Shown here one piece after another: positions 1 to 59,421 of a DNA stretch of 64,000 nt (positions within the stretch are counted from its first letter, which is position 1; each line of letters starts with the position of its first letter). Origin of the DNA: Tridacna crocea (Eukaryota > Mollusca > Bivalvia > Cardiida > Cardiidae); the NCBI GenBank assembly GCA_943736015.1, contig OX031059.1:54943159-55007158 (forward strand), in the 5' to 3' direction. The notes beneath the pieces are model-generated. The model was not told where the DNA came from and did not search any database. It worked only from the letters and a program-made list of their open reading frames with translations. Both the position numbers and the translations under genes were made by a program.

Positions 1-913
1 CTGGACCTCTGATTATGTTTTCAAAAGCCCTGTACTAGCAACAGTTGTCTTCATGGACTTATTTTCCTGTTACTGTTGTATATATCACGTGCTCAGCTAG
101 GCCATTTCTAATACCGCCAGGCCTGGAATTTCCGGCTGGACATGATTATGCTCGTTCACTAAACCGGAACCTATCGGGTAATTATACCATGCTTATGTAT
201 CTTGCCTTTTGCAATAAGCCAAGAGCAAAAAGTACAACCATTCTTTTATTATGTGAAATGCTTAAAAGGGATTAAAAACATAGATATATGATCTAAACTT
301 ACTGTATCTTTAAGCTCAATTATTAACTTTTGCTTTGTATTCACAAACTGTTCATGGTCCATTGACAGATGAGCTGAAATTGACAATAACGAATAGGTTT
401 ATACCATTTAGAAATATATAGAGCTAGCTCAGAAACAACCAGGACAAAGTAATTTATCATAAAGTTACATTTAAATAAATAAAAAAAAATGTAACGAAAC
501 TATTTAAAAAAAAAAAAAACTGAGTACTTGGCATCCCCATGTTTCAGAATGACCTATTAAATCCTAGACTTGCTCGAAAAAGCCATGCATCATTTTTTTC
601 GTATCTCGCCTGCTTTACGTAAATTATCATTATTATTAATAGTGTTAATAGAAGTAATTTTATCATCAGTACTATTGTTATTGTAATTAAGTGCTGTTTT
701 CCTATCTTTTCTGTCGTAACGTTTTCTTTTTACTCCATTGCATTTTCTTTTCAGTTACATGTACATATTAAACAGATCGTTTCCGCAGGAAAAATATCAG
801 TATACCTGTATTTCTACATGTTTATGAGTACATACGTTTGTTGATTTCTCAAAATTTTAATTGTTTCTGATGTGGAAGAGAAAAAATACTGCACCGCGTA
901 AAAAAGTTTACAT
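1..913. other. No gene recognised
   Basis: AT-rich unique sequence with poly(A) runs near 480-520 and short ATT repeats near 625-645. No splice-bounded open frame was convincing on either strand. Confidence 0.5.
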
Positions 914-955
914 AAAGGGAGACATTATCTTGTACGAGATACAGCTCCTGGAACT

Positions 956-1183
956 TTAACCCATTACCAAACGACAATATTATAGACCGTTGTCTAAATT
1001 GGAAGCATTGGCAGAAGACAAAATAAAAGTGTCTGAAATTTGAGATTTGTTTTGTGAAGGGTAGAAAACATTGTGGGAAAAGGAGAAAATGCTGGTTATC
1101 AGCATTTTCTCCTTTTCCCACAATGTTTTCAAAAGGCTTCTTTCTCAGAGGCGTCAAAAGTAGGGACTGTGTGGTAATGTTAA
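956..1183 (-). mobile_element. Family A MITE, complete, with demonstrable TTAA target duplication
   Basis: Bounded by TTAA on both sides and inserted in the 100-bp tandem repeat. The unit at 1571 carries the same flanks joined at a single TTAA (GGAACTTTAAATGTCGCCG), so the element boundaries and the 4-bp duplication are read directly. Central palindrome GGAGAAAATGCTGGTTATCA at 1080-1099 and its inverse. Confidence 0.95.
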
Positions 1184-1306
1184 ATGTCGCCGTTGTTAAA
1201 CGCGACAACGAAGTAATTTCAGCTTTGTCGTTTGCATACAAAGAGGCATCAGAGCTCCAGATAAGAGGGAGTGATGGGGTTCTAAATCCATTATTTCTTT
1301 TCCAAA

Positions 1307-1374
1307 CCCTATGTTGTGGGTACTCATTAGAATCGTCTCGATGAGACAATTCTAATGAGTACCCACAACATAGT
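1307..1374. repeat. 68-bp hairpin
   Basis: CTATGTTGTGGGTACTCATT pairs with its inverted copy ending at 1374; the loop is a few bases around GTCTCGATGAGAC. It lies between units of the tandem repeat. Confidence 0.85.
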
Positions 1375-1854
1375 GTTTAGTGAAGAATTATTAATATTTT
1401 TAATTTTAAAATCAAATTCACTCCCTCTATCTGGAGCTCTGAGACATTATCCTGTACGAAATACAGTTCCTGGAACTTTCAATGGCGCTTTTTTAAAACG
1501 CGACAACGATGGGATTCCAGCTTTGTCGTCTACATACATGGAGACATTATCCTGTATGAAATTCAGTTCCTGGAACTTTAAATGTCGCCGTTGCAAAATG
1601 CAACAACAGCTTTGTCGTCTAACTAGTAAACACACTTTTAATATTTATCGATACAGGTATTTGAAACGATTCTCTTCTTGTCTTTGTGAAAAAAAAAATC
1701 ATAAAAGATGCAAATCCTCTCCTGGCAAATATCATCTCCCCCTAAACCAACAACGATAAAGAAATGATTTCGTAATATCGTATATCTATTAAAGATAACT
1801 AAATATATATATGAACCACGCTCTTACAAAAAAATGGGTTTAACGAATCTCCAT

Positions 1855-2079
1855 GATACGAGATACCCAACAAGCCATCACATGATTAGCATTCCATAAT
1901 TGCCATTTCTTTTAAACAACCGACTTAATCATTAGCTAGACCTTTTTTTGGACGTACAGGAAATTGACTGAGAGCGACAAGTTTCGGCCCAGGTCAGCTT
2001 ACGCGGGCTGCGCAGGCTGACCTTGGCCGAAAATTTTCGCAGATGCACCAAGTCCCATGTTTACACAGCACGGTTCATA
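1855..2079. mobile_element. Family H element
   Basis: Carries the H core (GGCCCAGGTCAGC...GCTGACC) and the GATGCACCAAGTCCC terminal part. Its end lies next to the EF-hand candidate exon. Confidence 0.7.
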
Positions 2080-2122
2080 TCATTTTTCACACATAACGAC
2101 ATTTTCTGTTCTATATACGTAC

Positions 2123-2284
2123 GTCGTGTACCGTCCGATAGAATCCTGAGTATCACAAAATTAGAGACGTCAACACCATGTTGTCTGAGACATCGTCCTA
2201 GCTCGTTCACTGACACTTTACCCTCGTCATCAACATCTAGTTCTGTCCACAAGAGGTTATGTATTGTGTCCTCTACGTTTCCGT
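2123..2284 (-). CDS. Candidate internal exon with an EF-hand
   Basis: On the minus strand ATTCATTTTAG precedes an open frame GNVEDTIHNLLWTELDVDDEG... that contains one canonical EF-hand loop, DVDDEGKVSVNE, with Asp at 1 and 3, Gly at 6, Val at 8 and Glu at 12. A GTACGT donor follows at 2122-2117. With these signals the exon is 162 nt and phase 1 at both ends. The frame would encode part of a calcium-binding protein. Other exons were not recognised; an H element starts just beyond the donor. Alternatively it is a remnant of a lost gene. Confidence 0.5.
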
Positions 2285-2350
2285 CTAAAATGAATGAATG
2301 AATGAATTAATTAATTGATTAATTAATCAACCAATCAATCAATCAACCGA
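2285..2350. repeat. Tetranucleotide repeats (TGAA/TTAA/ATCA)n
   Basis: Consecutive short arrays of TGAA, TTAA-like and ATCA units. Confidence 0.8.
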
Positions 2351-2449
2351 CCAACAACCAGTCAGTCAACTGGTAAATAGTGCTCCTCACAGTTATGTAA
2401 CCAATCAAAATTTATGAAACACGATTTAAAAGTAGGAAGCTCATAGCTC

Positions 2450-3140
2450 TAGGTATGGTTGTAAGTTTTTGTGGTATTTGCCGAAGACAATGCCACTATG
2501 AGTTCAAGATTAAATATTGAAGAGCAGGTATCATATTTTGTGCAAACCCGAAGGAAATAAACCCAATTAAGATAATTTTTTCTCAGGAAAATGATTTTTT
2601 TCAGTTGCAGTCAGATATGTAATTTGAAATATTATGTTAAAATACATTGGGTAAATGATACAAAATTTGTCTACCGACCGTGGGCTTTTTCGTTCCAAAA
2701 CCAGTTCGTCCCATGGCTTGTTCATTCTGTGATTGTTTGCTACTTCATTTGATTGCGCATGAATATTTATAGATCGAAAAAAATGATTGTAATAATAGGA
2801 ATTAGAAATTAACGACTAAAGATATTTCAAAATTATAGTTTTCAAGTACAAACTTAATTCTATTCGATATATTCACATGTTTTTCTCTATCATGCATCCT
2901 ACTGTCAAGGGACGTTACTCCTGACTCCTCCTAATAATCAATGGGACCCCTCTAATAAACATGTAATCCAAACTTTGTCATGAGTACTCTCCCTTCAACC
3001 GAAAAGGTATTCGTTTTCTTAGTGGGTTGACTTTTAAGCCAATATTTGAACATTATGTCTCTTTTTCTTTCAAACTATTCATTCCACAAAATACGTTCCT
3101 TGCCACATACCACCTCAGCGTTCTCAACGCTTTGATTTTA
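2450..3140 (+). repeat. Family O interspersed repeat
   Basis: Runs parallel to 49395-50145 over GTGGTATT...GACAATACCACTAT and AAATAA.CCCAATTAAG through to the TTCTCAACGCTTTGATTTT end; an inverted copy is at 52745-53285. It looks like a degenerate non-coding element; class unknown. Confidence 0.7.
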
Positions 3141-3254
3141 TCAGTATTTATGTCTAACAGGCTGTTTTAGCTACATAGTTCATCGCGTGCGATGTTTATT
3201 TTCAAAACTTAGCCCCAAAGACCAATTTTCGAGTTCTATACTTCATGACATGAA

Positions 3255-3487
3255 TCATCCCATTACCAAACAACAATATTTTAGGCTTGTCCAAGTCGAA
3301 AGCGTTTGCAAACAACAAAATAAAAGAGACTGAAATTTTGAAAAAAAAAGTTTTGTGAAGGGTAGAAAACATTGTGGGAAAAGGAGAAAATGCTGGTTAC
3401 CAGCATTTTCTCCTTTTCCCACAATGTTTTCAAAAGGCTTCTTTTTTCACGGTCGTCAAAAGTAGGGATTGTGTAGTAATGGGTTAT
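3255..3487 (-). mobile_element. Family A MITE
   Basis: Near full length; the left TTAA has decayed to ATCC and the right end reads GTAATGGGTTA. Confidence 0.85.
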
Positions 3488-3829
3488 TCAGGCCCAAAAG
3501 TAAGACGTCTGTACCCTTCGAGTTGTTGGGTTCTCAACTTATTTGTTGTCCTTTATCTGACTCATTACTCGATTGGTATTCAATGAAGAGTCCTGACTCG
3601 GCGTCATTGATCTACTTACCCAAACCATCCATTATACTTGTATAGTTGTACGGAGACGTTGGTCAGACAATTGACATCAATCTTTGCCCTGTCCTAAAAA
3701 ATATCAAGCTGTTACTATTTTTTTTACTTTGTCGAAATGCCAAATTTATATCTTTGTAATCACGTAAAACGAGGGCGGTTGCAGTACTTTCATCTTATCG
3801 ACTGGGATCAAGGTCAAAATGGTCCTGTA

Positions 3830-3913
3830 CATCGCCGGTTTGCTTGCAAAACCTCGTAACTACAGCTTGTAACAAGCTGTAGTTACGAGGTTTTGCTAGC
3901 AAACCGACGATAT
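3830..3913. mobile_element. Family F hairpin element
   Basis: 84-bp dyad: CCGGTTTGCTTGCAAAACC and CTCGTAACTACAGCTTG followed by the inverse. Ends ATCG/CGAT. Confidence 0.85.
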
Positions 3914-3984
3914 ATTACATTTTGGTAATACTACATACGGTAGTTTCTATATTTTGACCATATGTCTGTTAGTTTAAACATATT

Positions 3985-4195
3985 TATTTTACATCGATTG
4001 AGAAACAAGTTCTTTAAACTTAAACTAATCTCTCTCGATTCTGCTTCCTGGGAACTACACCAGTACTCGCGCAGAATGTGTGGGCCAATGAAAAATCCCA
4101 AAATTGACACCCGCTCCCAGGTATTGAACTCAGGACCCTTAGGTTATGAAGCCGACGCTCTACCTCACGACCTCGGACACCACCTGTCTGTTTGC
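3985..4195 (-). mobile_element. tRNA-derived SINE
   Basis: On the minus strand, A-box-like TGAGGTAGAGCGTCGG and B-box GAGTTCAATACCTGG lie at tRNA spacing, followed by a non-tRNA body. It lacks a foldable acceptor stem, so it is not called a tRNA gene. Confidence 0.65.
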
Positions 4196-4227
4196 ACGTT
4201 GATACCAAAATTTTAACTATCAGCACG

Positions 4228-4453
4228 GGAAAAGGGGCATTCGGACATTTTGCGTTTAATGCCGCCTCGGGGTAGTGCGCACAGGCTATTCCGAGACGGC
4301 AGTGTACAATTACATTCGATTTTGTGCTACAGAAGACATGCGCAGAGCAGAAAATTACATGAAAACGTCGTTTCGGATTAGTCTGCGCAGATTGCGCAAG
4401 CTAATCCCAGACGGCACTTTCAGTAAATGTCAGAATGGCCCTTTTGGCATGTT
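4228..4453. mobile_element. Family G element
   Basis: Ends AAAAGGGGCATTCGGACA / TGTCAGAATGGCCCTTTT; internal dyads TTTCGGATTAGTCTGCGCAG and its relative. Divergent from the other four G copies. Confidence 0.75.
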
Positions 4454-4697
4454 GCCGGTGTAATGCAGAGAAATGACCCCCATTACAAAATGACCTACGG
4501 TCATTTCTCGACGTAGAATAACAACCCGTGGGTCATTTCTCTACGTCGAAAAATGACCCCTGGGTCATTTCTCGACGTAGAATAATGACCCGGGTCATTT
4601 TTCTACGTCGAAAAATGACCCATGGGTCATTCCTCTACGTCGTGAAATGACCCTGAGGTAATTTTGTAATGGGGGTCATTTCTCTGCATTACACCGG
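4453..4697. mobile_element. Family J: palindromic minisatellite with inverted ends
   Basis: Ends GCCGGTGTAATGCAGAGAAA and its inverse enclose about four ~32-bp units, each a dyad of the form AATGACCC-GGGTCATT separated by CTACGT blocks. Abuts the G element. Confidence 0.9.
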
Positions 4698-4842
4698 CCA
4701 TATTGAAAGTAGTGGGTGGAGGTAAATTTTTTGTGGCCGAGCAAAAAAAAAAGTGATTATGTTACTTCAAATGCTGCACAAGCTGCAGTTTGATAATACA
4801 TTTTTTAAAACCTGTAAACTGTTGAATAAATAAAAATGGCAG

Positions 4843-5072
4843 TTAAACCCTTTACCAAACAATACCTGGTTTTTACGGCCCTGAGAGGGAAGCCTTTTGA
4901 AAACATGGTGGGAAAAAGAGAAAATGCTGGTAACCAGCATTTTCTCCTTTTCCCACAATGTTTTCTTCCCTGCTGGAAATAAATTTTGCTTTTTGAGTAA
5001 CACTGATTTTGTCGTCTGCAAATGCTTTCAATTTGGACCAGTCTAAAATTTTGTCATTTAGGAAAGGGTTAA
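4843..5072 (+). mobile_element. Family A MITE, complete
   Basis: TTAA at both ends; left arm of the CCTGGTTTTTACG type; intact core palindrome. Confidence 0.92.
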
Positions 5073-5194
5073 AACAAACTTTAAAGTCTCCAAAATTTAC
5101 AGGAAAAAACCTGATCGTGTCGGACTATGTAAATCACGCTTCATCTGCACGTCCTGTCAAATTCATTTAATCCACACAATCATCGGGCGACTTT

Positions 5195-5377
5195 TATCAT
5201 CCTTGAAAGAGAAGGCTTTTGAAAACATTGTGGGAAAAGGAGAAAATGCTGGTAACCATGTTTTCAAAAGCCTACCAGATCAAAGAAAACTCATTGTATA
5301 TAAGCAACATCGAAAATGTAATCAGCAATTGCTTTCAATTCCGACAGGTCTAAAATCTTATCGTGTGGTAAAGGTTT
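5195..5377 (+). mobile_element. Family A MITE, internally deleted
   Basis: Lacks the left end and half of the core: AATGCTGGTAACC is followed at once by ATGTTTTC. Confidence 0.75.
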
Positions 5378-5403
5378 GAATGAAGAACATTGATGATCTA
5401 TGA

Positions 5404-5855
5404 CAGGGCCGTAGGAACAAGGGGGGGCCAGGGGGGGCCGGGCCCCCCTAATAATTTTATCACCAATAAAACGACCGTGTCAGTATTTAGCTGAATATTG
5501 CTAGACAATCATCGTGTATAAAGAGAATGAAATAATAGAAAATTCCGAACAATTTAAAATAATTCTAAACAAACGGCGGCGAGCCATGGAATTTTTTCTC
5601 CTACTTTTGTTATCTGACAGACACAAAACAATTTCTGACGTCACATTGCATTCCGTGTGATTTTCTGCTTTACTTTTTCTCCAAATCTCATAATTCACCA
5701 CAATGTTGAACAAATTTCCTTCTTTTTCGGTCATTAGTATTAGTAGGTGGATTATTTCTCACTGCATAACCAAGCGCAATATATGTAAAATCAGGACAAG
5801 CCGATTCTAAAATGATGTTGGCCCCCCCAATCCAAAATTGCTTCCTACGTGCCTG
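5404..5855. mobile_element. hAT-like non-autonomous element
   Basis: 452 bp with imperfect inverted ends CAGGGCCGTAGGAA / CAGGCACGTAGGAA, the style of hAT termini. G-rich left part and matching C-run at right. TATGA flanks both ends, shorter than the 8-bp duplication expected for hAT, so the class is tentative. Confidence 0.6.
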
Positions 5856-6118: not shown

Positions 6119-6571
6119 CAACCCTTTACAACACAATCCCAACTTTTAACTCATTACCAAACGACAAAATTATAGGTTTGTCCAAATTGAAAGCACTTGA
6201 AGACAACAAAATAAAAGTGACTGAAAATTTGAAACTTGTCTTGTGAAGGGTAGAAAACATTGTGGGAAAAGGAGAAAATGCTGGTTACCAGCATTTTCTC
6301 CTTTTCTCATAATGTTTTCTAAAGGCTCCTTTCTCAGGGTCGTCAAAAGTAGGGATTGTGTGGTAACGGGTTCACGACCCTGAGACTGAAAATTTTTGAA
6401 AATATTGCGGGGAAAGGAGAAAATGCTGTTCACCAGCATTTTCTCCTTTCTCCACAATGTTTTCTACCCTTCCCAAACGCAATTTCAATTTTCAAGTCAT
6501 ATATATTTTGAAGTCTGTAAATGCTTTGAAGTTGGGCGATTCTAAAATTGTATTGTTTGACAAAGAGTTAA
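6119..6571 (+). mobile_element. Family A MITE carrying a nested A copy
   Basis: Left 28 bases (CCCTTTACAACACAATCCC), then the inner element, then the element resumes at CGACCCTGAG and runs to TTAA 6568-6571. Its own core palindrome is at about 6417-6463. Confidence 0.9.
6146..6374 (-). mobile_element. Family A MITE nested in another A
   Basis: Inserted at the internal TTAA of the host left arm (CTTTTAACGACC in intact copies such as 46174-46403). The left duplication is TTAA, the right has changed to TTCA. Confidence 0.92.
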
Positions 6572-7754: not shown

Positions 7755-7952
7755 ATTGTAAACTAAAATGAATTTTTCAAATCGAAAGTAAAAACCTTAA
7801 TATTGCTATTTCGAAGCAATGTTTTGGGGAAAAAACATCTCCACATCGGGCAGTGTAGATCAAAGATCAGACTGCACGTTCTGTGCAGTCTGATCTTGAT
7901 CTACGCTGTCCGCAAAAGGTAACTGGGTCGCGTCTAGCAGCCTGAGGGTTAA
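7755..7952. mobile_element. Family D element
   Basis: GTAGATCAAAGATCAGACTG dyad, TCCGCAAAAGGTAA flank and CAGCCTGAGGGTTAA terminus. Confidence 0.8.
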
Positions 7953-8299
7953 GAGCTGGTAATGTGAAAACCTTTGATTGTGTTTGTTTTTGTATTATCC
8001 TGCACTAAAGACATTAAACCTATAGCTGTATAGCAGATTTCGAAAATTGAAACTTACTAAAGAATTATGAACTTTCTAAACCCTGTATTACTCTATCCGA
8101 CCTTTCACACTTATTTTGCTAAATTAATGAAATAAAACTTTCAAGCCGAAAGTAAAAAAAACAAACAAACTTTGCTCTTTCAAGATGATTTTCTTTTATG
8201 GAAAGATATCTTCTTAACGGACAGTGTTGTTTCAAGGAAGGACTGCACATTCTGACAATTTCTTGTCCATGTACTGAATTCCCATTCTGATAAAAAAAA

Positions 8300-8563: not shown

Positions 8564-8792
8564 TTAAGTCATTACCAAACGACAATATTTTAGACTGGTC
8601 CAAATTGAAAGCATTTGCAGACGACAAAATAAAAGTGACTGAAAATTTGAAATTTGTTGTGTGAAGGGTAGAAAACATTGTGGGAAAAGGAGAAAATGCT
8701 GGTTACCAGCATTTTCTCCTTTTCCCACAATGTTTTCTAAAGGCTTCTTTCTCAGGGGCGTCAAAAGTGGGGATTGAGTGGTAATGGGTTAA
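8564..8792 (-). mobile_element. Family A MITE, complete
   Basis: TTAA 8564-8567 and 8789-8792; the latter is shared with the next A copy. Confidence 0.93.
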
Positions 8793-8990
8793 CCCTTTAC
8801 CAAACAATCACGGGTTTTTACGACCCTGAGACAGAAGCCTTTTGAAAAGGCTGGTAACCAGCAATTTCCCCTTTTCCCACAATGCTTTCTACCCTGCTGG
8901 AAACAAATTTAAATTTTTGAGTCATGTTTACTTTGTCGTCTGCAAGTGCTCTGAATTTGGATCAGTCTAAAATTTTGTCTTTTGGTAATG
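8789..8990 (+). mobile_element. Family A MITE, core half lost
   Basis: Starts at the shared TTAA; left half of the core is deleted so no hairpin remains. Confidence 0.85.
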
Positions 8991-9133
8991 GATACCGGCA
9001 GTTTCCTCTTTTCCCATAATGCTTTCTACCCTGCTGGAAACAAATTTCAATTTTTGAGTCATGTTTACTTTGTCGTCTGCAAGTGCTCTCAATTTGGACC
9101 AGTCTAAAATTGTGTCTTTTGGTAATGGATTAA
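8991..9133 (+). mobile_element. Family A right half, tandem copy
   Basis: Nearly identical to 8850-8988, a local tandem duplication of the right arm ending in TGGTAATGGATTAA. Confidence 0.85.
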
Positions 9134-9556: not shown

Positions 9557-9788
9557 TTCACCCTTTAACAAACAATCCCTGGTTTTTATGACTCAGAGGA
9601 AAGAGGCCTTCTGAAAACATTGTAGAAAAAAGGAGAAAATGCTGGTAACCAGCATTTTCTCCTTTTTTCTACCATGTTTTCAGCTCTTCCAAAGTCAAGT
9701 TTCAACGTTTTAGTCTCGTTCATTTTGTCGTCTGCAAATGCTTTCAAATTGGACAAGTCTAATATTTCGTCATTTGGTAAAGAGTTAA
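9557..9788 (+). mobile_element. Family A MITE
   Basis: Left TTAA decayed (TTCA), right TTAA 9785-9788. Core variant ends TTTTCTACCATGT. A short extra A fragment follows at 9790-9850. Confidence 0.88.
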
Positions 9789-9930
9789 AAGGCAGAAAAC
9801 GTGGCAGATAAAGGAGAAAATGCTGGTTACCAGGCGTCTTTTCTAAGGGTTTTTAGGACTCGGGAATGTCCGAAAAAGTGTTTAAAGGCCTTTGATGACT
9901 GTCGCTTTTTGTGGCAGCCACTGTAGATCT

Positions 9931-10128
9931 GGGCCCGTATTCACCAACCATTCTCAAGAACGTTCTTGGTCTTATTCTTCAAGATTTCCTGACTGTGAAA
10001 GTAACAGAACATCTGATTGGCTAAACCGGATGGTTTAGCCAATCAGATGTTCTGTTACTTTCACATTGGCAAAATTCTGAAGAATAAGCCTAAGAATATT
10101 CTCAAGAATGGTTGGTGAATATGGGCCC
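9931..10128. mobile_element. Family I palindrome
   Basis: GGGCCCGTATTCACCAACC at left and its inverse at right enclose a dyad with inverted CCAAT boxes (TGATTGGCTAAACC / GGTTTAGCCAATCA). Confidence 0.88.
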
Positions 10129-10282
10129 AGGACAAAAAACGGATATTGAATCTAGACTCGTTGCTTTGTGCGATTTCTTGTTGATGGCACCCATTAAACG
10201 ACAATGATTTTGGTGTGTTTTTTTTTTTGCCCGACCGAAAATAGCAATTATAATGGAGTCATGGTTTTGGCAATTAGGCCGA

Positions 10283-11065: not shown

Positions 11066-11294
11066 TTAACTCATTACCAAACGACAATATTTTGGACTTC
11101 TCCAAATTGAAAGCATTTGCAGATGACAAAATAAACGTAACTGAAAATTTGAAAGTCGTTTTGTGAAGGGTAGAAAACATTGTGGGAAAAGGAGAAAATG
11201 CTGGTTACCAGCATTTTCTCCTTTTCCCACAGTGTTTTCAAAAGGCTTCTTTCTCAGGGGCTTCAAAAGTAGGGATTGTGTGGTAATGGGTTAA
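11066..11294 (-). mobile_element. Family A MITE, complete
   Basis: TTAA at 11066-11069 and 11291-11294. A partial right arm of another A follows at 11295-11430, perhaps an end-to-end pair. Confidence 0.93.
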
Positions 11295-14609: not shown

Positions 14610-14888
14610 GCATCGCCAAAAGTGACCAGCAATAGCCTATGTGCCTAGACCAGCATTTCTCATGCCCACAATTTGCCATTTCTGGGCTGCGGAAAGTTTT
14701 CTCGTAGCCATCCTTTCATTTGGCTCATAAAGCAGCCTGGTACTTGTCTAGTGGGTTCGTGCATAGCTTGAAAATAAATAAAAGGTTATCTATTGAAAAG
14801 AATTGACTAAATTTGTTCGGGCGATGCTTAACTTATGTCCTACTGTATGTATTGGGCATTTTCCAGTTAAGTTTTACAACAAACTGGA

Positions 14889-15133
14889 CTGCAACACGCG
14901 AAGAGGGACATTCGGATATTTCCGTAAAGTGTCACCTCGGATCGACCTGCGCAGTCCGCACTGGCTAATCCGAAACGACACTTTCCGTTTTTATGTATTT
15001 TTCTTTTTTTGCGTAATTCTACTGTAGCTCAAAATCAAATGTAGTCGTAAAGTGCCGTCTCGGATTAGCCTGCGCGGACTGCGCAGGCTGATCCGAGACG
15101 ACACTTTATGCAAATATCCGATTGTCATATCGC
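14889..15133. mobile_element. Family G element
   Basis: Two dyads, GGATCGACCTGCGCAGTCCG and GATTAGCCTGCGCGGACTGC, between CAACACGCG... and ...CGCATGTT ends; lies in the bHLH intron. Confidence 0.85.
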
Positions 15134-15651: not shown

Positions 15652-15883
15652 GCTAAACCCTTTCCCAAACTGCAAGTTTTGGACCAGACCAAATTAAAGC
15701 ATTTAGCAGATGACAAATTAACAGTTGCTAAAAAGATGATTTTTCTATATGCCAGGTTAGAAAAAACATTGTGGGAAAAGAAGAAAATGCTGGTTATCAG
15801 CATTTTCCCCTTTTCCCACAATGTCTTCAAAATGCTTCTATTCCTGACCCGTAAAAACCAGGGATTGTTTGGGAAAGGCTTAA
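15652..15883 (-). mobile_element. Family A MITE
   Basis: Right end GGCTTAA at 15883 is immediately followed by a new TTAA of the next copy. Confidence 0.88.
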
Positions 15884-16110
15884 TTAACCCTTTCCCAAAC
15901 GACAAATTTTGGACTCCTCTAAACTGAAAGAGTTTGCAGACAATAATTTTAGATTTTGAGACATGGCAGAGAGTTCTCAAAAAGGGTAGAAAACACTGTG
16001 GGAAAAGGAGAAATTGCTCGTTACGAGCAATTTCTCCTTTTCCCATAGTGTTTTCAAAAGACTTTTACTGCAGACACGTAAAAACCAGGGATGGTTTGGA
16101 AAAGGCTTAA
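15884..16110 (-). mobile_element. Family A MITE, GCTCGTTACGAGC core subfamily
   Basis: Core GAAATTGCTCGTTACGAGCA instead of GCTGGTAACCAGC. Right TTAA 16107-16110 shared with the next copy. Confidence 0.92.
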
Positions 16111-16325
16111 CCCTTTCCCAAACGACAAATTTTGGACTCTTCTAAACTAAAAGAGTTTGCAGACAATAATTTTAGATTTTGAGAGATTTTGAGAAAATGG
16201 CAGAGAGTTCTCAAAAAAGGGTAGAAAACAGTGTGGGAAAAGGAGAAATTGCTCGTTACGAGCAATTTCTCCGTTTCCCACAGTGTTTTCAAAAGACTTT
16301 TACTTCAGACACGTATAAGGGTTAA
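16107..16325 (-). mobile_element. Family A MITE, same subfamily, end to end
   Basis: Close sister of 15884-16110; the pair shares one TTAA. Confidence 0.92.
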
Positions 16326-19231: not shown

Positions 19232-19250
19232 ACTAATAGAGTCTCCATAC

Positions 19251-19640
19251 CTTGACGGGATGCATACATCCATTTGCCGCAAACATCTGAGAGATATCTA
19301 CATCGTCAGCTAGAGCACTCATTAGGTGAGCTATATACGTGGTAGCCAGAACAAGAACGTCAAGTTTGGACAGTTTTGTATCGGGCGGTACGGCTGGCAG
19401 AGTCTTCTGTAAGTCCAAAAATGCGGAGCGTAGCGTCTTCACCCGAGTCCGTTCTCGTGCTGCGCTGTTGGCGATCGGACGTCCTCGGCGTTTGGGGGAT
19501 CGAATAGGTCCGGGTCCAAATGTTCGGCCGAGATGTTTACTGTTCTGTGCTTCGGTGTTGGTATAGTCATTGTCGTGACACGAATCGGTGAAATAAGTCT
19601 CATCCAAGTGGTAAGCGAGGAAATCGTCAGCGTCCGACAT
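19251..19640 (-). CDS. TCF23/TCF24-like bHLH transcription factor, exon 1 (residues 1-130)
   Basis: Nuclear DNA-binding or dominant-negative bHLH factor of the group that includes vertebrate TCF23, TCF24 and musculin. The translation has an acidic, Tyr-rich N-terminus ([17 protein letters not shown]), a basic stretch SPKRRGRP, the basic region [14 protein letters not shown], helix 1 with FLDLQKTLP, the diagnostic loop [16 protein letters not shown] and helix 2 [13 protein letters not shown] place the start at ATG 19640-19638; the upstream in-frame GTG is not used. The exon ends at HPVK with donor AAG|GTATGG (GT at 19250-19249) in phase 0. The open frame runs only four codons past the donor before a stop, as expected for intron read-through. 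The second exon is at 14164-14301. Assignment to the TCF23/24 branch rests on the [11 protein letters not shown]...ATTYIAHL block and the HPVK-KWPMR junction. Confidence 0.9.
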
Positions 19641-19719
19641 GTTAAAAACGATAATCTGGTTAATCAACTGTGAATTATATTCTAAATGACACACTTCGGA
19701 CCAAAACGTAATGATTCAT

Positions 19720-20478: not shown

Positions 20479-20702
20479 GTCCGTATTCACCAACCATTAT
20501 TAAGAACATTCTTAGTCTGATTCTTCAGAATTTTGTTAATGTGAAAGTAACAGAACTTCTGATTGGCTAAACCACTTTTCTGATTGGCTAAACCAATTGG
20601 TTTAGCCAATCAGAAGTTCTGTTACTTTCACAGTGACTGTTAGAAAATCTTGAAGAAAAAGACAAAGAATGCTCTGAAAAATAGCTGGTGAAAACGGACC
20701 CA
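20479..20702. mobile_element. Family I palindrome with internal duplication
   Basis: CCGTATTCACCAACCATT start; the TTCTGATTGGCTAAACCA segment is doubled near the centre. Confidence 0.8.
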
Positions 20703-20800
20703 GCAAGTTTTTTATCTTGTAGGATAGACTAAACATACCAACAAACGTTATAAAATTCAGACGGCGCGTTTCGTTGTAGTCTGATCTTGATTAATACGGC

Positions 20801-25615: not shown

Positions 25616-27338
25616 AGGTGGGTATTTAGAATTTTCACATCACACCAAATTAAAAAAATATATATATCATTGAAATTCATATGAAAAAACAATACAAAAC
25701 ATCAATAATTAAGAATCATAAAATTACAAAGAAAAAAAATTTTGATGGTATTCCCTTAAAAGGCTACGTAGCCACTTAAGCTATTTTTAGATTTCGCGCC
25801 AAAAATCAATAAAGCATTGTGGGAATGTCAAATGACTGGCATGTGACTAATAACGCTTAAATTCCATTACATAAAAAATATGAAATAATTATTTTCCATA
25901 ATGTCTTCTTTGGACGGATGTTTGAAACTTTGTCTGTGTTTTCCTGTATTTAAATGAGGGAATTGATCATCTAAAAATAGAATGTGTCTCCCGTTGGTGT
26001 CAACCTGGTGCGTAATAAATCTCTAATTTCTCGTGTTATCGGATGGTTTTCGACTACTGGGGTTTTATGAAGGCAAATTAAAAGGCTATGGGAGTATAAG
26101 GATGATTTGTTTGCATTTTAGTAAAATTTTCGTCCCAAAATCTGAAGGGCCACCTTTAAGAGAAAAAAGGATATAAACACAAAAAAGTCATGAAATTCGT
26201 GACAAACTGATAAATTTACAATGATGATCAGCGACTCTGTTGTCTACAAACTCTGCACTAATCGATCAAAATAGTATAAATGCTTGCGCAACGCGTTTTT
26301 TCACTTTGGAGCGTAAATGTCAAAAACTTGTACCTTTACCTGAATGACAAGTGCACTATCGAAAGATATGGGAGAAGAAAACGTAAAAATGACGTTCATA
26401 TGTCTCCTGGGGTCAGAGTCCCTTGCAAGGGGCGTAGCAACCTAAACGAAAAATATATGTACTCGCTCTCACGCTAGGAAAACAAGAGGGCTGTTAGAGC
26501 TCTGTATCGCTCCACTTCTATGATAATACCGTCAATGTGCCATGATTTGCTCTGAAAAAGACACTTGCTAGTGAAAAGCCTGTACAAGACATCAATGGCA
26601 CTGCAAATCAGTTGTTTCTGAATATGGCACATTTCAGCGTTTCGAATGTCAAATGTAAATTTATACAGAAATCAGTGAGAAATGAACTGAGAAGTCTTTA
26701 AAAAATCCTTAGAATCCAACTAAAAACTTAAAAAAGAAAGAGACAATAGTGATAAGACACACTCATGGCCACTCTTCGACGAAATTTAACATAAGTTCAA
26801 TTAGAACTATGTACAATAGAAGTTGTCATTCGCCAAACAATAATGGCAAATCTAGGTTCTACATTACCAAATTGATATTAAAAACTGGGTAAGAAATGAC
26901 CAAAGTTAGTACGAAATGATCAAAATAAGAATTATAGGTGAGTACAAAGTGACCAAAATTGTACGAAATGGCCTAGGTACGAATTGATCTTATCACGAAA
27001 TGACAGGAAGACGAGTAAACAATAATGGATGCCTCCATAGGTACCTTTCAAAGGCGAATAGAAATATAGTGGCGCCGCTCATGCGGCCCCTCAATAACAA
27101 AACGCCAAAAAAAACAATACAAGCTTGAAAAAGTAACGATTTTTCTGTCATAAAAGAGATGAAACCAATAGAATGCATAAAAATGAAGTTGTATAGATTT
27201 GTTGGACCATTATGAATCTAAGTATAGCTTGTTACGAAATAAAACAAACTAAATCCACAGCAGTTCGTCTTTTTAACGAACCAAAAATATCAAAAAATCA
27301 AATACTCAAAGTCCTGAAAGTGAATTTGTGCAACACTA
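25616..27338. other. No gene recognised
   Basis: AT-rich. ATTTCGCGCCAAAA at 25788-25801 resembles an E2F site beside GCATTGTGGGAA. A short motif GTACGAAATG(G/A)CC recurs at 26910-26990. No exon supported. Confidence 0.4.
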
Positions 27339-36114: not shown

Positions 36115-37617
36115 TTATACTCGACAGTCCATCCTGACATAAAACTCTTCTGGTTCCAAGAACAACCCAGGTTTGAAGTTCCTTGGGTCTAGGTGCACAT
36201 GTTTATGACTTACTGGTGGGGAAATGTCGAAGGTCTGTAGGATACTTGTGATATACAAAAACATCTTTCCAGTAGCAAAGTCGCTTCCAGGACAACTATG
36301 TCGGCCTAGGGAAAATGATATAAGATTTTGTCTGTTGGCGTGGTTTGGAGACACTAGTTGTCCATTAGCATCTAGAAATCTCTCCGGTTCAAAGGTCCAT
36401 GGATCCTTCCAGAGTGATGGGTCCTTGTGTATAAACCATATATTGGTGAAAACAATGTCATTCTTTTTCATGCTGTAGCCCTCGAAATTATGATCACATG
36501 ATACTTCATGGGGTAAACCAACGGAGCCATGCGAAATGTATCTCAACGTTTCCAACATAAATGCCGTTGTATAGTTCATTTTATCTTTGTCCGCAAGGAT
36601 CGGTAATCTTCCTTGTCCGATAACTTCATCAATCTCTGTCTGGATATTTTTGGCACATTTTGGATGTTCTGCCAGAATGCCGATGGCAGAAGTGATTGCA
36701 TAGGTTGTGGATGTCATACCTCCAGATATAATATCCAGGAGAAGGCTCTTTATATTGTCATCTCGTATCATTTCATATCCCGCTTTCTTGTTCTCTTCAC
36801 GTTGAAGTTTTATCAACATATCAACTATCCCACTCTCTTCTCCTTCGTAATCTCGAAAGTCTTTCCGGCTATAGTAATATCTCTTTTCCACTAAATCACG
36901 CTGTTTGATCACTCTTTGGAACAATCTCCCATACTTTGTGTACGTAGCATGTCGAAGAAATGGTAGGAACTTCAGCATCATATTGACAGAATTTTCGGCT
37001 ATGAAACTAATGGAATCATTTAATTCCCAAATCATTTCAGAATCCCCTTCTTTTGGAAGTTCCCCAGACAATAGTATAGACATAAGATTTCCGAATGATC
37101 GTCGTATAAGGGGCTTAAAAACAAAGTCTTGATCTTTGTGGTCGTGTATATTGTCAACAAACCGAGACAACTCTTCATGAACAATTTCAATGCTGTGCTT
37201 TTTAAGAGCTTTGGTGAACAATTTCTTTAGAACAATAAATGCTTTGTCATATTTCAGTGCAAATGCAATGTCACTGTTACCGTATGCTACATGTTTACCT
37301 ACGACTGTCTGTGGGTGATTACAGTAGGTACTGGCGTATTCATCATCCATGAGCGCTTTCTTTATCAATGACCGATCATTTAACACCACAATCCCCTGGC
37401 CAAATAGAGACACTTTAAAGATTTTGCCGTATTTGGATGCCCATTCTTCGAAACTCTGATGTATCTTTTCAATATTAACATCTAGCGAGGATCCCAAAAG
37501 AGGCAACCCTTGAGGTCCTGGTATCTGTTTGCCAGGGATCTTGTTTGTTGTGAAGCGTTTGTATGCAACAATAAAGAGTAAAACTGTAATCACAAATACA
37601 AGAAATCCTGGATCCAT
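36115..37617 (-). CDS. Cytochrome P450, clan-2-like, complete single-exon coding sequence (500 aa)
   Basis: Haem-thiolate monooxygenase of the microsomal type, expected in the ER membrane and fed electrons by P450 reductase. Seen in the translation: N-terminal hydrophobic anchor (residues about 5-19), a proline-rich hinge with IPGPQGLPLLGS (32-43), I-helix SGGMTSTT (298-305), ExxR as E356-R359, PERF (411-414), and the haem loop F435-x-x-G438-x-x-x-C442-x-G444. The length of 500 residues is normal for the family. The ATG is at 37617-37615; the preceding in-frame GTG is not a eukaryotic start. The stop TAA is at 36117-36115. The frame is open throughout, so the CDS has no intron, which is unusual for clan 2 genes. 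Odd residues: Met301 replaces the usual acidic residue of the I-helix, and His440 replaces the usual Arg two places before the haem Cys. A TTTATT at 35584-35589 (AATAAA on this strand) could be the poly(A) signal. Subfamily and substrate cannot be read from the sequence. Confidence 0.95.
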   Translation of the reverse strand: MDPGFLVFVITVLLFIVAYKRFTTNKIPGKQIPGPQGLPLLGSSLDVNIEKIHQSFEEWASKYGKIFKVSLFGQGIVVLNDRSLIKKALMDDEYASTYCNHPQTVVGKHVAYGNSDIAFALKYDKAFIVLKKLFTKALKKHSIEIVHEELSRFVDNIHDHKDQDFVFKPLIRRSFGNLMSILLSGELPKEGDSEMIWELNDSISFIAENSVNMMLKFLPFLRHATYTKYGRLFQRVIKQRDLVEKRYYYSRKDFRDYEGEESGIVDMLIKLQREENKKAGYEMIRDDNIKSLLLDIISGGMTSTTYAITSAIGILAEHPKCAKNIQTEIDEVIGQGRLPILADKDKMNYTTAFMLETLRYISHGSVGLPHEVSCDHNFEGYSMKKNDIVFTNIWFIHKDPSLWKDPWTFEPERFLDANGQLVSPNHANRQNLISFSLGRHSCPGSDFATGKMFLYITSILQTFDISPPVSHKHVHLDPRNFKPGLFLEPEEFYVRMDCRV

Positions 37618-37660
37618 CACTGTCTGAAAGTATAAAAAGAAGAAACTGTTAAATACAAAT
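37618..37660 (-). promoter_or_regulatory. Predicted 3' splice site in the P450 5' UTR
   Basis: Read on the minus strand, a pyrimidine-rich tract leads into CTTTTTATACTTTCAG, followed by ACAGTG and then the P450 ATG. This is a textbook acceptor about six bases upstream of the start codon and implies a leader exon further upstream (coordinates above 37,660) that I could not locate. An alternative is a chance match in AT-rich DNA. Confidence 0.6.
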
Positions 37661-37950: not shown

Positions 37951-38226
37951 TATGGCCTGCAATACGCGAAAAGCGGCATTTAAACATTGGCGTAAAGTGT
38001 TGTCTCAGATCAACCTGCGTAGTCCGCGCAGGCTAATCCGAAACGACACTTTGGGTTTTTATATAACCTAAGAACTGTTTTGCGCTAGTCTACCGTAGCA
38101 CAAAAAATCTGATGTAGTCCTAAAGAACCGTCTCGGATGACCCTGCGCGGACTGCGCTGGCTGATCAGAGACGACATTTTACGCAATTGTCCGAATGCTC
38201 CTTTTGACGTGCTGCAAGCCATATAA
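37951..38226. mobile_element. Family G element, complete
   Basis: Ends TGGCCTGCAATACGCG / ACGTGCTGCAAGCCATATA; dyads AGTCCGCGCAGGCTAATCCG and GGACTGCGCTGGCTGATC. Confidence 0.88.
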
Positions 38227-38267
38227 AATTGAAGAACTTGATTCACTATCGATGTGAAATAAGTGTA

Positions 38268-41989: not shown

Positions 41990-42221
41990 TTAAAATCCTT
42001 TACTCACATGGCAAAAATTTAGACCTATCCAAAGTTAAAGCATTTGCAGACGACAATTTCATAGTGGCTCACATGAAGCAATTTCCCTAGGATAGGATAG
42101 AAAACTTTGTGGGAAAAGGAGAAAATGCTGGTTACCAGCATTTTCTTCTTTTCCCACAATGTTTTCAAAAGGCTTTTTCCTCAGGGTTGTCAAAAGTCGT
42201 CATTGTGTGGTAAAGGGTTAA
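41990..42221 (-). mobile_element. Family A MITE
   Basis: Left end decayed, right TTAA 42218-42221; core intact. Confidence 0.88.
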
Positions 42222-44725: not shown

Positions 44726-44945
44726 TTAACCCGTATCCTGCTTAGTAACTAAAATAAAATGTTCACTTCGATAGTAAAAACCAAAAGATCGGTATTCCAA
44801 AGTTATGTTTCGGGGAATATATATGTATCTCCATATCGGACACCGTAGATCCAAGATCAGACTGCACGTTTTGTGCAGTCTGATCTTGGATCTACGGTGT
44901 CCGCAAAAGGTAAATAAGTCGCGATAAGCAGCCAAAGAGTTTTAA
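44726..44945. mobile_element. Family D element, complete
   Basis: TTAACCCGTATCCTGC start, perfect dyad ATCCAAGATCAGACTGCACG with inverse, TTAA at the right. Confidence 0.88.
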
Positions 44946-45106
44946 AAAAGTCTTATTAATGAGGTAATCGAAAAAAATGACTAATTTCAATTTAATTTCA
45001 TTTTTACCAAGATATCCCTCTGATGAAACCACACTTCACTAACTTTTCAAATGGTTTGCCGAGTATTCGCCAGTCCCACTGAATTTGATAACGAAAAGGT
45101 CGTCTC

Positions 45107-45316
45107 TTAACCCTAAGGCTGCCGTGCGCGAATCTCTGACCTTGTGTGGACAGTGCAGATCAAGATCAGACTGCACAAAACGTGCAGTCTGATCTTGGAT
45201 CTACATTGTCCGGTAAGGTGACCCCGTCTTCAAAAATAAATTTGAAAACAGCAATAATTTGGTTTTTCCATCGGCTTTAAAAGTTTAATTTTACTTGTTT
45301 AGTATGTAAAAGGTTA
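45107..45316. mobile_element. Family D element, complete
   Basis: TTAACCCTAAGGCTGC start; right TTAA 45313-45316 is shared with the next A element. Confidence 0.9.
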
Positions 45317-52081: not shown

Positions 52082-52308
52082 TTAACCCTTTACCAAACAA
52101 GCCCTAGTTTTACGACCCTGAAATAGAAGCCTTTTGAAAACATTGTAGGAAAAGGAGAAAATGCTGGTAACCAGCATTTTCTCCTTTTCCCACAATGTTT
52201 TTCTACCCTTCTTAAACAAATTTCAAATTTTCAGCCACATTTATTTTGTCGTTTGCAAATGCTTTTGATTTGGACAAGCTTAAAATAATGTCGTTTGGTT
52301 CTGACTTA
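52082..52308 (+). mobile_element. Family A MITE, complete
   Basis: TTAA at both ends. Confidence 0.92.
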
Positions 52309-52507
52309 AATCTTTACCAGCCATAGAAAAAGTAGAATAGTCCAAACGGAAAACGCTTGCGGGTGATACCATGAATGTAACGAAAAAAAAATAAATAAAT
52401 AAGATTTGGTGACAAAATATTTAAAAAAAATCGGGGTAAAAGAGAAAAGCGCCTCTGGGTTACGAGCCCATGTTGCACAGCTAGGCCACGTAGGACTCTT
52501 TAGTGTC

Positions 52508-54771: not shown

Positions 54772-55048
54772 ATATATGGCCTGCAACACGCGTAAAAGGG
54801 ACATTCGGACATCTGCGTAAAGTGTCGTCTCGGATCAGCCTGCGTAGTCCGCGCAGGCTAATCCGAGACGGCACTTTCCGTTTCAATGCCATTTTCTGTT
54901 TTTCGCATGTCTACTGTAGCACAAAATCTAATGTAGTCGTTAAGTGCCGTCTCGGATTAGCCTGCGCGGAATGCGCAGGCTGATCCGAGACGACACTTTA
55001 CGCAGATGTCCGAATGATCCCTTTTCGCGTGTTGCACACCATATATAC
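54772..55048. mobile_element. Family G element, complete
   Basis: Inverted ends ATATGGCCTGCAACACGCG / CGCGTGTTGCACACCATAT; two dyad cores. Confidence 0.92.
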
Positions 55049-55745: not shown

Positions 55746-55829
55746 GTTCCGAAAGGGTTTACTAAATGCTCATCTAGGCTCTTCCTGATTGGACACGGTG
55801 ACGAACACCGCAAGAGGGAATCAATTCCA

Positions 55830-56027
55830 GGGCCCGTATTCACCAACCATTCTTGAGAATATTCTTAGTCTTATTCTCCAAGGTTTTCCAAATTTGTAAG
55901 TAACGCAACTTCTGATTGGCTAAACCGAATGGTTTAGCCAATCAGAAGTTGCGTTACTTACAAATGTAGAAAATTCTGGAGAATAAGACCAAGAACGTTC
56001 TTAAGAATGGTTGGTGAATACGGGCCC
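55830..56027. mobile_element. Family I palindrome, best preserved
   Basis: 198-bp near-perfect palindrome from GGGCCCGTATTCACCAACC to its inverse; centre TGGCTAAACCGAATGGTTTAGCCA. Confidence 0.92.
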
Positions 56028-57464
56028 TGGACTTTCTGATTGCCCATCTACCACCATAACTGCTGGCTACAGCAGAACTCTGATATTTTTATATGGTAAA
56101 AAGTCTGCAATCCAAACAGATTGGCAACATAAATATCCACGACAAAGCCACTATGTAATCATTTCACGCAGCCTGGTCAGCTATTTGTCATAATTATAGA
56201 GCGCTTTAATTTCCCAATCGCGCTTCCTCTGACAGATTCCATTTGTCTAGAAGGAAAAAGAGATATCCAGAAATGTCTGGAAACCCATTTCTGGAAATTG
56301 TTTGGTCGACTCGTTTACATTTCAAAGCGAAAAATAGTCTATTTTTTTTTCCATTACAAACAGGTTGGACTTCTGCGGGAAAAATAAAAATGTGCAATTC
56401 CTTCATGGCATTCGAAACCTTTCAAGCAATATTGTCCTAAAGGACTCCTTAGTGCTGTCATTTGTCAACAAATATTCAAGCTCCTTTCTTAGTATATGAA
56501 TTTATTGTGTAGGTCAAAATAGCTTTAAACTTTTATAATTTCTACCTGGTATGTGCTCTGATCAGAACATAACATTCTGATTCTAGTTTCATTTATAATA
56601 AAACTATTGTGTTTTTATTCTTTCATATCCTGCGTTTGTTTGTTTATTTTTTTGCGGGGGGGGGGGGGGGCTGGAAATCATGGTTAGTGTTCCTTGTATA
56701 CATTATATGAAAATAACCATATAACTTGCATGATATTTCCCACTGAACCTAATTGTAGTTAAAAATGTATATATGTCGAGTGATTCCATAATTACATACC
56801 ATGTTACTGTAGCCATGCACTTCTGAAATATTGATAGTTCTAGACTTTTTGTGGCGGTTGTCGCCACAGAGTTAATGAAAATTCAAAAATTCGAAAGAAA
56901 ATTCCAAAATTCGAAACAAAATTCGAAAAATAAATAAGTGTAAAAAACAAACTCATTGTCTATGTATCAGTGATGAACATACCTAACAACCGCCATAACA
57001 TTTCAGTTAACTCCATAAAAGTAGTCAACCAAATATGCTACTGCTTCTAAAGAAGACGGCTTTAACTAATTTTACTGATCAAAGAAGTGTTGATAGTGAT
57101 TGATTTTATGCTTAAAAAAACATTCTAAGAGACAGTTAAGGTTGGCCAACTGTTATTGCATCCTGAAACATCGGCTAATGTCGGTATACTACGTACAACA
57201 ATCGAATTGCCTCGGTAAGCTGCGGAGAATGGACGGGCATTCACGTCAATTAGCGCCGGACACGGTATGATTAAACCATCTTTAGCATTATTTTTATTAG
57301 TTAGACACTGGTGCCAATGGTAGATTTTTAAAATGCAAAAACATCGTTCAGTGACGCATATAGCCAAAATAATACAACTGCATGACAACGCACGTACGAC
57401 CTGATCTTGATCTTAAATTCACTCTCCGCAAAAGATGGAAACGCTACATTGGTTGCATGTAGGA
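56028..57464. other. No gene recognised
   Basis: Unique DNA; poly(G) run near 56657-56670 and a repeated AAAATTCGAAA motif at 56883-56930. Confidence 0.4.
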
Positions 57465-57906
57465 GGGTGATATGAGATAACATCCGTCGTTCGCAGAAGC
57501 AGTGTCGTCAATGTGGGCCGTCTGTTGTTTGCGTTAACAGACAAATTTCCAATACGGCATGCAGCATGCGAAAAGGGGCATTCAGATGTCTGCATTAAGT
57601 GTCGTCTTCGATCAGCCTGCGCAGCCCGTTCGGGCTATTCCGAAACGACACTTTCCCTTTTTATGTAATTTTCTGTTTTGCACAAGTCATCTGTAACACA
57701 AAATCTAATTTAGTCGTAAAGTGCCGTCTCGGATTAGCCTGCGCGGACTGCGCAGGCTGATCCGAAACGACACTTTACGCAAATGTCCGAATCCCCCTTT
57801 TCGCGTGTTGCAAGCTATATGAGACAACGTCCGTCGCTTGCAGAAGCAGTGTCGTCAATATGGGTTGTCTGTTGTTTGCATTAACTGACAAATTCCCAAT
57901 ATAACA
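57465..57906 (+). repeat. ~90-bp direct repeats flanking a G element
   Basis: GCAGAAGCAGTGTCGTCAAT and about 70 further bases occur at 57465-57555 and 57820-57906, on either side of G. Confidence 0.88.
57553..57823. mobile_element. Family G element, complete
   Basis: GCAGCATGCGAAAAGGGGC / CCCCTTTTCGCGTGTTGC ends, two dyad cores. Confidence 0.9.
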
Positions 57907-58308: not shown

Positions 58309-58536
58309 TTAACACTTTCCCAAACAATCCCTGGTTTTTACGACCCTGAGACTGAAGCCTTTTGAAAACATTGTGGGAAAAGGAGAAAATGCCTGTAACC
58401 AGCATTTTCTTAATTTCCAACAATGTTTTCTATCCTGCTAAAACCGAGTTTAAATTTTTTAGTTACGTTTATTATGTCGTCTGCACGTGCTTTCAATTTC
58501 GACCAGTCTCTAAGTTTGTCGTTTGTTAAAGAGTTA
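58309..58536 (+). mobile_element. Family A MITE, complete ends, damaged core
   Basis: TTAA at both ends; right core arm TTTCTTAATTTCCAAC. Confidence 0.88.
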
Positions 58537-58835
58537 ATGAAAAGTTATAATTATTCTAGAGGTCATTTGCAGCCATGGCAAATTAATATAACGAATCTTT
58601 TCCAAAATGCGTCATATAAAAATAAATCATGTCTATTTCCAGTTTCAGTTTTCCGATTTCGCTCAATTTACTATGGCTACAAATTACATCTCAAATCTTT
58701 TTTTTTATCAAGCAAATAAATCTAAGCAAAAGAAAAAAAAGAAGAAGAATTTCATTAAAAAAGAGAAAGAAGACCTCTTGACAAGATCATGCGACTTGAA
58801 AACGCGGCAAGAAGGTCAAATGACCGTCATATAAA

Positions 58836-58922: not shown

Positions 58923-59207
58923 GAGGTTTCATTGTGGCGGCGTTTTTACTTGTTTGTTTACATGTACCAAAAAATATTGAAATTAAAAGCCAACAAATTA
59001 TTTGAAAACATTGATGCTGACCTCCCCTGGCTTCTTGTGTAAAGAAACCAACTTGTACTGTAATAGGAAAGCGGACCTTTTTGTATTCGTTACCAAGAAA
59101 AGGACAAAGTTCAAGCAGTGGGCATCTTTAATACCATTTATTGGATTGGTTTTCCAATAGTAGAACACTACCAGTTCTTCCGTGATTTGTTTTGTTTTGG
59201 AACAATA

Positions 59208-59421
59208 TTAACCCCTTAGCTGATAAGGGCGACTCACTGACCTTTTGCGGACAGTGTAGATCAAGATCAGACTGCACAGAACGTGCAGTCTGATCTTGGA
59301 TCTACACTGTCCGAGAAGGAGATATTATTCCCGAAATCAAAATGATTAAATTGCAATATTTGGGTTTTCTCTATCGAAATGAAAAGTTCATTTTAGTTAT
59401 TTTTGGCAGGATAAGGGTTAT
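59208..59421. mobile_element. Family D element, complete
   Basis: TTAACCCCTTAGCTG start; perfect dyad around CACAGAACGTG; ends GGATAAGGGTTA. Confidence 0.88.

Follow-up and report, generated by a model that had tools for sequence, protein, structure and literature searches.

Among published cases found in open-licence PMC text, the closest to the repeat family described here (family A) is CMITE, a set of families in Acropora corals (excerpts of PMC2872659). It is, as family A appears to be, a MITE of piggyBac type that duplicates TTAA and forms tandem arrays; its ends are of the CCCTTT type (CCCATT in one autonomous element of a coral), its autonomous relative has little in common with it beyond the ends, and its interior is better conserved than the ends, all of which resembles family A. 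The two differ in length and number: CMITEs are about 100 bp long and were estimated by their authors at about 1,600 copies for A. millepora (excerpts of PMC2872659), compared with about 221 bp and 152,335 exact cores for family A. They also differ in the 71-bp palindrome that family A carries. The 60-bp CMITE interior given in these excerpts was not found in the family A consensus when the two were compared by eye.

The piggyBac element of Trichoplusia ni and piggyBat share with the two autonomous elements described below (C15 and C7) a PF13843-type transposase with a C-terminal cysteine-rich tail, a TTAA target and unlike ends, and are to be compared in size with the 6.4-7.2 kb of the autonomous elements found here. 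According to the excerpted text of PMC7351741, piggyBac is excised without a footprint through TTAA hairpin intermediates and inserts at TTAA. Kolobok and KolobokP also duplicate TTAA but differ in their 5'-RR termini and their transposase, and KolobokP is abundant in bivalves (excerpts of PMC9587614). In the available part of a survey of bivalve transposons, MITEs made up a considerable share of the genomes and were left unclassified (PMC10294476). Searches of open-licence PMC text returned no family A sequence strings, and among the titles and abstract openings listed there none described a family of this kind. The architecture of family A is of an already known kind, and its interest lies in its abundance and in its matched pair of autonomous elements.

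An insertion in a tandem repeat and further empty sites

The window, i.e. the whole 64-kb stretch of DNA analysed here, corresponds to G000:C4:54943159-55007158 in an assembly of 1,048,827,098 bp in 31 contigs. The initial annotation had described an element at 956-1183 interrupting a tandem repeat; the element is present there, but this interval counts in both TTAA copies (956-959 on the left and 1180-1183 on the right), and the body of the family A copy, located by reading the sequence and with the family profile, spans 960-1179 (220 bp; all features of this site are on the plus strand). Positions 950-959 read GGAACTTTAA and the sequence from 1180 reads TTAAATGTCGCCG. The interrupted unit of about 100 bp lies on either side (left part 906-955, right part 1184-1248), and excising 960-1179 together with one TTAA rebuilds the neighbouring unit, confirming the interruption. 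The joined flanks matched an uninterrupted unit at 1528-1607, which contains the single-TTAA sequence GGAACTTTAAATGTCGCCG, at 85% over 80 bp, and a second uninterrupted stretch of the array at 1441-1538, in which the site is TTCA, at 84.7% over 98 bp, with an ungapped junction in both cases. As the joined flanks align ungapped to the uninterrupted unit, exactly one extra TTAA came with the 960-1179 insert, and the proposed duplication of exactly TTAA holds at this copy, its empty unit (1528-1607) having a single TTAA.

The left terminal inverted repeat of this copy is CCCATTACCA (960-969), and here the family consensus agrees with the left end of the C15 element. The right one, GTGGTAATG (1171-1179), has two G fewer than the family end: the copy finishes with GGTAATG before TTAA, and the common family end, GGTAATGGG before TTAA, is two bases longer. 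The 71-bp central palindrome occupies 1062-1132. The unit that follows in the array is interrupted by a second, unrelated MITE (about 1249-1442) with inverted ends CAGAGCTCCAGATA, flanks GGCAT and AGACAT, and a central palindrome of its own, the arms of which (1292-1339 and 1343-1390) are 88% complementary.

Beyond the copy at 956, further empty sites were found in the window and in the fetched piggyBac loci. Joining the flanks at 33 window sites yielded six paralogous matches, three of which were good (956, 6146 and 11066) and one of which reached 77% (58537); the candidates at 8992, gapped at the junction, and at 9788, with 75% and without a clear TTAA, were set aside. The copy at 6146-6373 (plus strand) lies within an older copy of the family and its joined flanks matched 23 other places; the one at 11066-11293 (plus strand) entered a further family A copy at the centre of its palindrome, with joined flanks matching 44 other places. 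For the minus-strand copy at 58310-58537, the paralogous empty site was 58665-58764 (77%, site TCAA). The window also holds, at 25716-25839, an empty site with a single TTAA for a copy from another part of the genome (L012:5942-6167), the match being 91.9% over 124 bp, and a copy located inside a piggyBac element (L024:4850-5077) had its empty site in L015 (98.4% over 122 bp, site TTTA). Among 26 joined sites in the fetched piggyBac loci, six gave matches and two of these were good; the other four were dropped, three of them (one homologous locus) matching a neighbouring family A end and one being gapped.

Family A in the window and in the genome

A family A profile was built from 21 full window copies and searched against the window with nhmmer. 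It returned 63 non-overlapping matches, of which 45 were 150 bp or longer and 33 had both ends; the 63 cover 17.8% of the 64 kb, in agreement with the earlier estimate of more than 50 copies and about a sixth of the window. The consensus measured 221 bp between the TTAA copies, and the family showed the features of a MITE: short, non-coding, high in copy number, homogeneous in size and with inverted ends. With a tolerance of 2 bp, TTAA stood where expected in 34 of 48 cases on the left and in 33 of 39 on the right (chance for a random position, 3.9% per end). It was present on both sides of 23 of the 33 two-ended copies, a count at most one too high since the left end at 41997 reads AAAA and passes by the 2-bp tolerance only. 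The remaining ten lacked it on one or both sides, seven of them, by our reading, being one base off TTAA on the deficient side.

The first three bases of the two-ended copies were CTC in 14 and CCC in 12, and the last three were GGG in 22. The initial description of the ends as CCC therefore applied to the 12 copies starting with CCC and the 22 ending with GGG, but not to the 14 starting with CTC, nor fully to the copy at 956, two bases short at its right end. As the second base T stands against G in 14 of 33 copies, the family A ends are not perfect inverses. The fourth bases paired as T-A in 16 copies and A-T in 10 (unmatched in 7), and the seventh as A-T in 21 and C-G in 6 (unmatched in 6).

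Three copies run head-to-tail on the plus strand at 15656-16316, joined at TTAA; abutting copies with a common TTAA, either head-to-tail or in opposite orientation, occurred there and at 8564-8992 and 52083-52467. A TTAA beside an existing family A copy seems to have been re-used as a target.

The best-scoring window copy (8564-8791, plus strand) was used as a genome query, giving 2,270 first-look candidates, 40 of which were scored. These 40 matches, the query itself among them, were near-full-length with 95-100% identity. In the 39 fetched genome copies, TTAA was found on both sides of 31, on the left of 36 and on the right of 33 (right end within 2 bp), the first three bases were CCC in 20 and CTC in 16, and the last three were GGG in 35. 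Of the 27 two-ended family A copies contained in 20 fetched piggyBac loci, 13 had TTAA on both sides and 14 did not.

An exact 39-bp core occurred 152,335 times genome-wide (76,371 + 75,964), with no occurrence of its backwards control, and the exact core patterns were absent from viral contigs and prokaryote genome contigs. Its density was 281 per Mb in the window against 145 per Mb in the genome, i.e. about 2-fold higher. These figures imply a genome total of about 0.5 million family A matches or more (about 0.52 million by scaling from the window). The genome fraction obtained by calibration was 9.1% with the window and 14.3% with the window and the piggyBac loci pooled, the loci alone giving a biased 27.8% (7 exact cores); the calibration run counted 61 window matches compared with 63 in the window search, the searched size being different. 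Ten 4-kb stretches taken at round-number positions contained 18.4% family A (SE 6.7%), which was present in 7 of the 10, and the reversed control gave 0. Because the calibrations disagree (9.1% to 18.4%), family A is stated here as roughly 9-18% of the 1.05-Gb genome.

An open stretch of at least 60 codons was present in one minus-strand frame in 16 of 39 long copies, and in one plus-strand frame in 11 of them. A coding role for the family A open frame was rejected: codon positions differed by about 2 standard errors in the 5' part, and the 3' part was not in the expected order.

Other repeats of the window were inspected as well. Long central palindromes recur in unrelated families, one of which has TTAACCC-like left ends, right ends ATTTTAGTT and the central palindrome AAGATCAGACTGCAC (7758-7955, 44744-44941, 59206-59401, 45105-45295 and others); in its copy at 44837-44903, changes including an extra base are present in both arms. 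In another, the ends resemble GGGCCCGTATTCACCAACCATT and the palindrome contains CTGATTGGCTAAACC (9929-10132, 20479-20703, 55826-56032). A further family, with ends like TATATGGCCTGCAACACGCG (14885-15126, 37951-38227, 54773-55045, 57552-57820), reached a self-comparison depth of up to 15-fold. Concerning genes, a Pfam search was run on 40 window ORFs, after exclusion of those made up mainly of family A, of most others below 80 aa and of stretches with stops. Cytochrome P450 and HLH domains scored above the cut-off and one EF-hand below it, and no transposase was detected among these 40. The 514-aa P450 open frame (36115-37659, minus strand) and the bHLH protein frame (19233-19715, minus strand) are likely host genes. 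By eye, an open frame at 62579-62833 (plus strand) resembles a Tc1/mariner transposase fragment; Pfam matched nothing to it at 0.01. The window was also scanned with Rfam (gathering threshold) and for tRNAs, and neither scan returned anything.

Autonomous piggyBac elements with matching ends

The genome contained at least 118 PF13843 matches, counted exon by exon, and longer flanks were taken for 22 of the transposase loci. Nine of these carried elements with TTAA/CCC ends, belonging to six types other than C15 and C7 (CCCTATCCTCCAC, CCCATTTATGCCT, CCCTTTATATAC, CCCTTTCAGYGC, CCCTTGTCATGC and CCCTAGTCATGC), four had a long block in common whose start, TTAA-CTCATTACCACTCAG, was visible in three, two (L027 and L029) had weaker end pairs, and several had none at the thresholds used. 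Following the shared block further led to the C15 element and its second copy. At L007:775-3762, a CCCTTTATATAC-ended piggyBac (868-3633) apparently lies inside a family A-like element. A transposase block common to L009 and L012 (about 2503-5529; 96% over 3 kb), with edges devoid of TTAA/CC inverted ends, is possibly a degenerate or domesticated piggyBac.

The initial annotation had suggested looking for an autonomous element with the same ends and a DDD transposase, and two such elements with PF13843 transposases, C15 and C7, were found, the presumed DDD segments being aligned to a solved transposase for C15. C15, a 7,202-bp element (G000:C15:28711023-28718224), starts with TTAA-CTCATTACCA and finishes with GGTAATGGG-TTAA; a second copy on C3 was 99.64% identical over 7.2 kb with different flanks, and both lie between TTAA copies. 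Its minus strand possessed a 492-aa open frame matching PF13843 at 1.9e-88 and, in PDB, piggyBat (9c0f, 1.8e-39) and piggyBac (6x67, 2.2e-36). The segments VDEAMIPFSGR, YFDNFF and GGVDLHDQ, which we take to hold the DDD triad, align to those of piggyBat and are followed by a C-terminal cysteine-rich tail. An upstream 122-aa frame, with MSDSDSDN after one residue and no Pfam match, could, as a guess, be a first exon. Five stop-free 492-aa open frames with nearly equal scores were counted among the at least 118 PF13843 matches, and two of these five elements were read whole. The C7 relative measures 6,376 bp and has ends CTCTTTCCCACACA, inverted over 14 of 14 bases, which are those of the other family A subfamily; its transposase was 79.7% identical to that of C15 over 492 aa. 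Both elements start with CTC and, judging from their sequences, are apparently intact.

A consensus of ten window copies was identical to the left end of C15 for 14 bp, counting the TTAA (TTAACTCATTACCA), and agreed with the right end at 31 of 38 aligned bases, the last 14 being identical (CTTTTGACGCCCCT). Alignment scores were 28 (left) and 43 (right) for C15, whereas seven other elements reached 10-16 and 14-20. All 33 two-ended window copies were then compared with nine autonomous elements, namely C15, C7 and a further seven that did not include L027; the best match was C7 for 24 and C15 for 9, and polarity was kept in every one of the 33. At the right end, scores averaged 39.2 for C7, 28.3 for C15 and 13.5-17.2 for the other seven, and at the left end 20.8, 19.9 and 12.8-15.9, respectively. 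The two MITE end variants, CATTACC and CTTTCCC, are the ends of the two partner types.

We consider it about 95% probable that family A is a non-autonomous piggyBac MITE that was moved at TTAA by transposases of piggyBac elements of the same genome, a mobilisation that we infer from sequence. The piggyBac assignment made initially is supported by the end match with C15 and C7, their PF13843 transposases, the TTAA on both sides of 31 of 39 genome copies and the empty sites. Its original argument, that TTAA plus CCC ends is the piggyBac hallmark, is no proof by itself, and it is the partner elements that sustain the conclusion: TTAA and CCC ends alone are not decisive for piggyBac because Kolobok also duplicates TTAA. 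Another TTAA superfamily is Sola3. Set beside the terminal motif CC[C/T]T, family A has left ends in CTC or CCC with A or T as fourth base, and right ends in GGG in 22 of 33 window and 35 of 39 genome copies; CC[C/T]T is the piggyBac motif given in the excerpts of PMC2872659. Against the piggyBac reading stand the shortness of the left-end identity with the autonomous element, the copies without TTAA on both sides (10 of 33, 8 of 39 and 14 of 27) and the central palindrome, for which the autonomous elements showed no counterpart.

Membership of Kolobok, which is present in molluscs and likewise has a 4-bp TTAA duplication (excerpts of PMC9587614), is extremely improbable. The excerpted text gives Kolobok termini as 5'-RR and YY-3', which family A does not have, its own being mostly 5'-CY and GG-3', and the autonomous elements that match it, C15 and C7, encode transposases of the PF13843 type. 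That a piggyBac lineage other than C15/C7 mobilised family A is unlikely: longer flanks were taken for only 22 loci among at least 118 PF13843 matches, and some of these loci had no recognisable ends, but the C15 and C7 ends were best for 33 of 33 window copies, with right-end means of 39.2 and 28.3 against 13.5-17.2.

With family A as a piggyBac MITE, piggyBac transposases of the same genome would recognise its two unlike ends and excise the element, presumably via TTAA hairpins as in piggyBac (excerpts of PMC7351741). The excised element would then be inserted at TTAA, with duplication of the tetranucleotide. The enzymes responsible may be those of C15 and C7 or others very closely related to them, and the palindromic middle was probably kept as copies bearing it would spread better.

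Conservation of the central palindrome and covariation of its arms

The palindrome corresponds to model columns 106-176 (71 bp). Of its 35 pairs, 34 are complementary in the window consensus and all 35 in the one built from the 39 similar genome copies. The copy at 8669-8739 folds as a single hairpin (-39.1 kcal/mol, z -17.3). Across pairs of 39 window copies, divergence in the palindrome was 0.30-0.42 of that in the rest (2.4-3.3 times less) in every age class. Single-copy states were equally frequent in the palindrome (45/2,533) and in the rest (93/5,403) of the 39 window copies, with counts lowered in variable columns, and private changes in ten close window copies were 11/710 and 58/1,437, respectively (p = 0.0016). 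The 39 genome copies showed 39/2,768 changes in the palindrome against 195/5,615 in the rest, including 27 and 78 private ones (p = 0.12). The cells counted in these comparisons are not independent. We read this constraint as acting on transposing lineages and not on inserted copies, with ascertainment a possible contribution since the copies were found by sequence. A like constraint was suggested for the CMITE interior by its authors (excerpts of PMC2872659). In the autonomous elements, no counterpart of the palindromic middle was found beyond nested family A copies.

It is possible, though doubtful, that the palindrome is a cis-acting amplifier kept by selection, its hairpin or cruciform raising transposition or copying and bringing the MITE to a tenth or more of the genome. 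The better conservation of the 71-bp palindrome relative to the ends, and the copies that abut or run head-to-tail, would also suit a family that is chiefly a palindrome spread by replication or recombination (fold-back, tandem amplification), with TTAA incidental; this is made very improbable by target duplications that are a clean 4 bp at sites unrelated to one another, and by the autonomous partners with polarity-matched transposon ends.

The arms could also have been kept alike after insertion by frequent template-switch correction, a known mechanism according to the excerpts of PMC8794818. In 41 window copies, 29 of the 32 cells changed in both arms were complementary (5.6 in shuffles), in 36 sequences 25 complementary cells were counted against 6.2 (reached in 0 of 500 shuffles), and all nine same-branch double changes were complementary, slid controls giving 2-6 double changes. 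By contrast, the 39 similar genome copies contained 32 single-arm changes, one non-complementary double and no complementary double. Genome-wide, arm pair 6 had 2,124 left singles, 2,211 right singles and 96 doubles against 30.8 expected (3.1x), and the control pair 6/12 had 1,919 right singles and 62 non-complementary doubles against 26.8 (2.3x), leaving a complementary excess over control of 1.35-fold (one-sided p = 0.04). At pair 14, the complementary double had a raw count of 1,845, as expected of a subfamily. Ongoing arm-to-arm correction is thus barely supported by these counts and, weakened by the 39 genome copies and by pair 6, was abandoned as the favoured reading; frequent correction as the cause of the likeness of the arms is quite unlikely. 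Given the lack of complementary doubles in the 39 copies, the 1.35-fold excess and the 1,845 at pair 14, complementary arm changes appear for the most part to mark subfamilies. They could have originated by template switching (PMC8794818, in excerpt) or through selection for a perfect palindrome.

For gene annotation, the long family A copies call for caution, as they carry open stretches of at least 60 codons (16 of 39 on the minus strand and 11 of 39 on the plus strand). A single MITE family at such a scale, in an assembly that also contains a matched pair of autonomous elements, both apparently intact, makes mass amplification directly testable, including which transposase moves which subfamily and whether the conserved palindrome matters.
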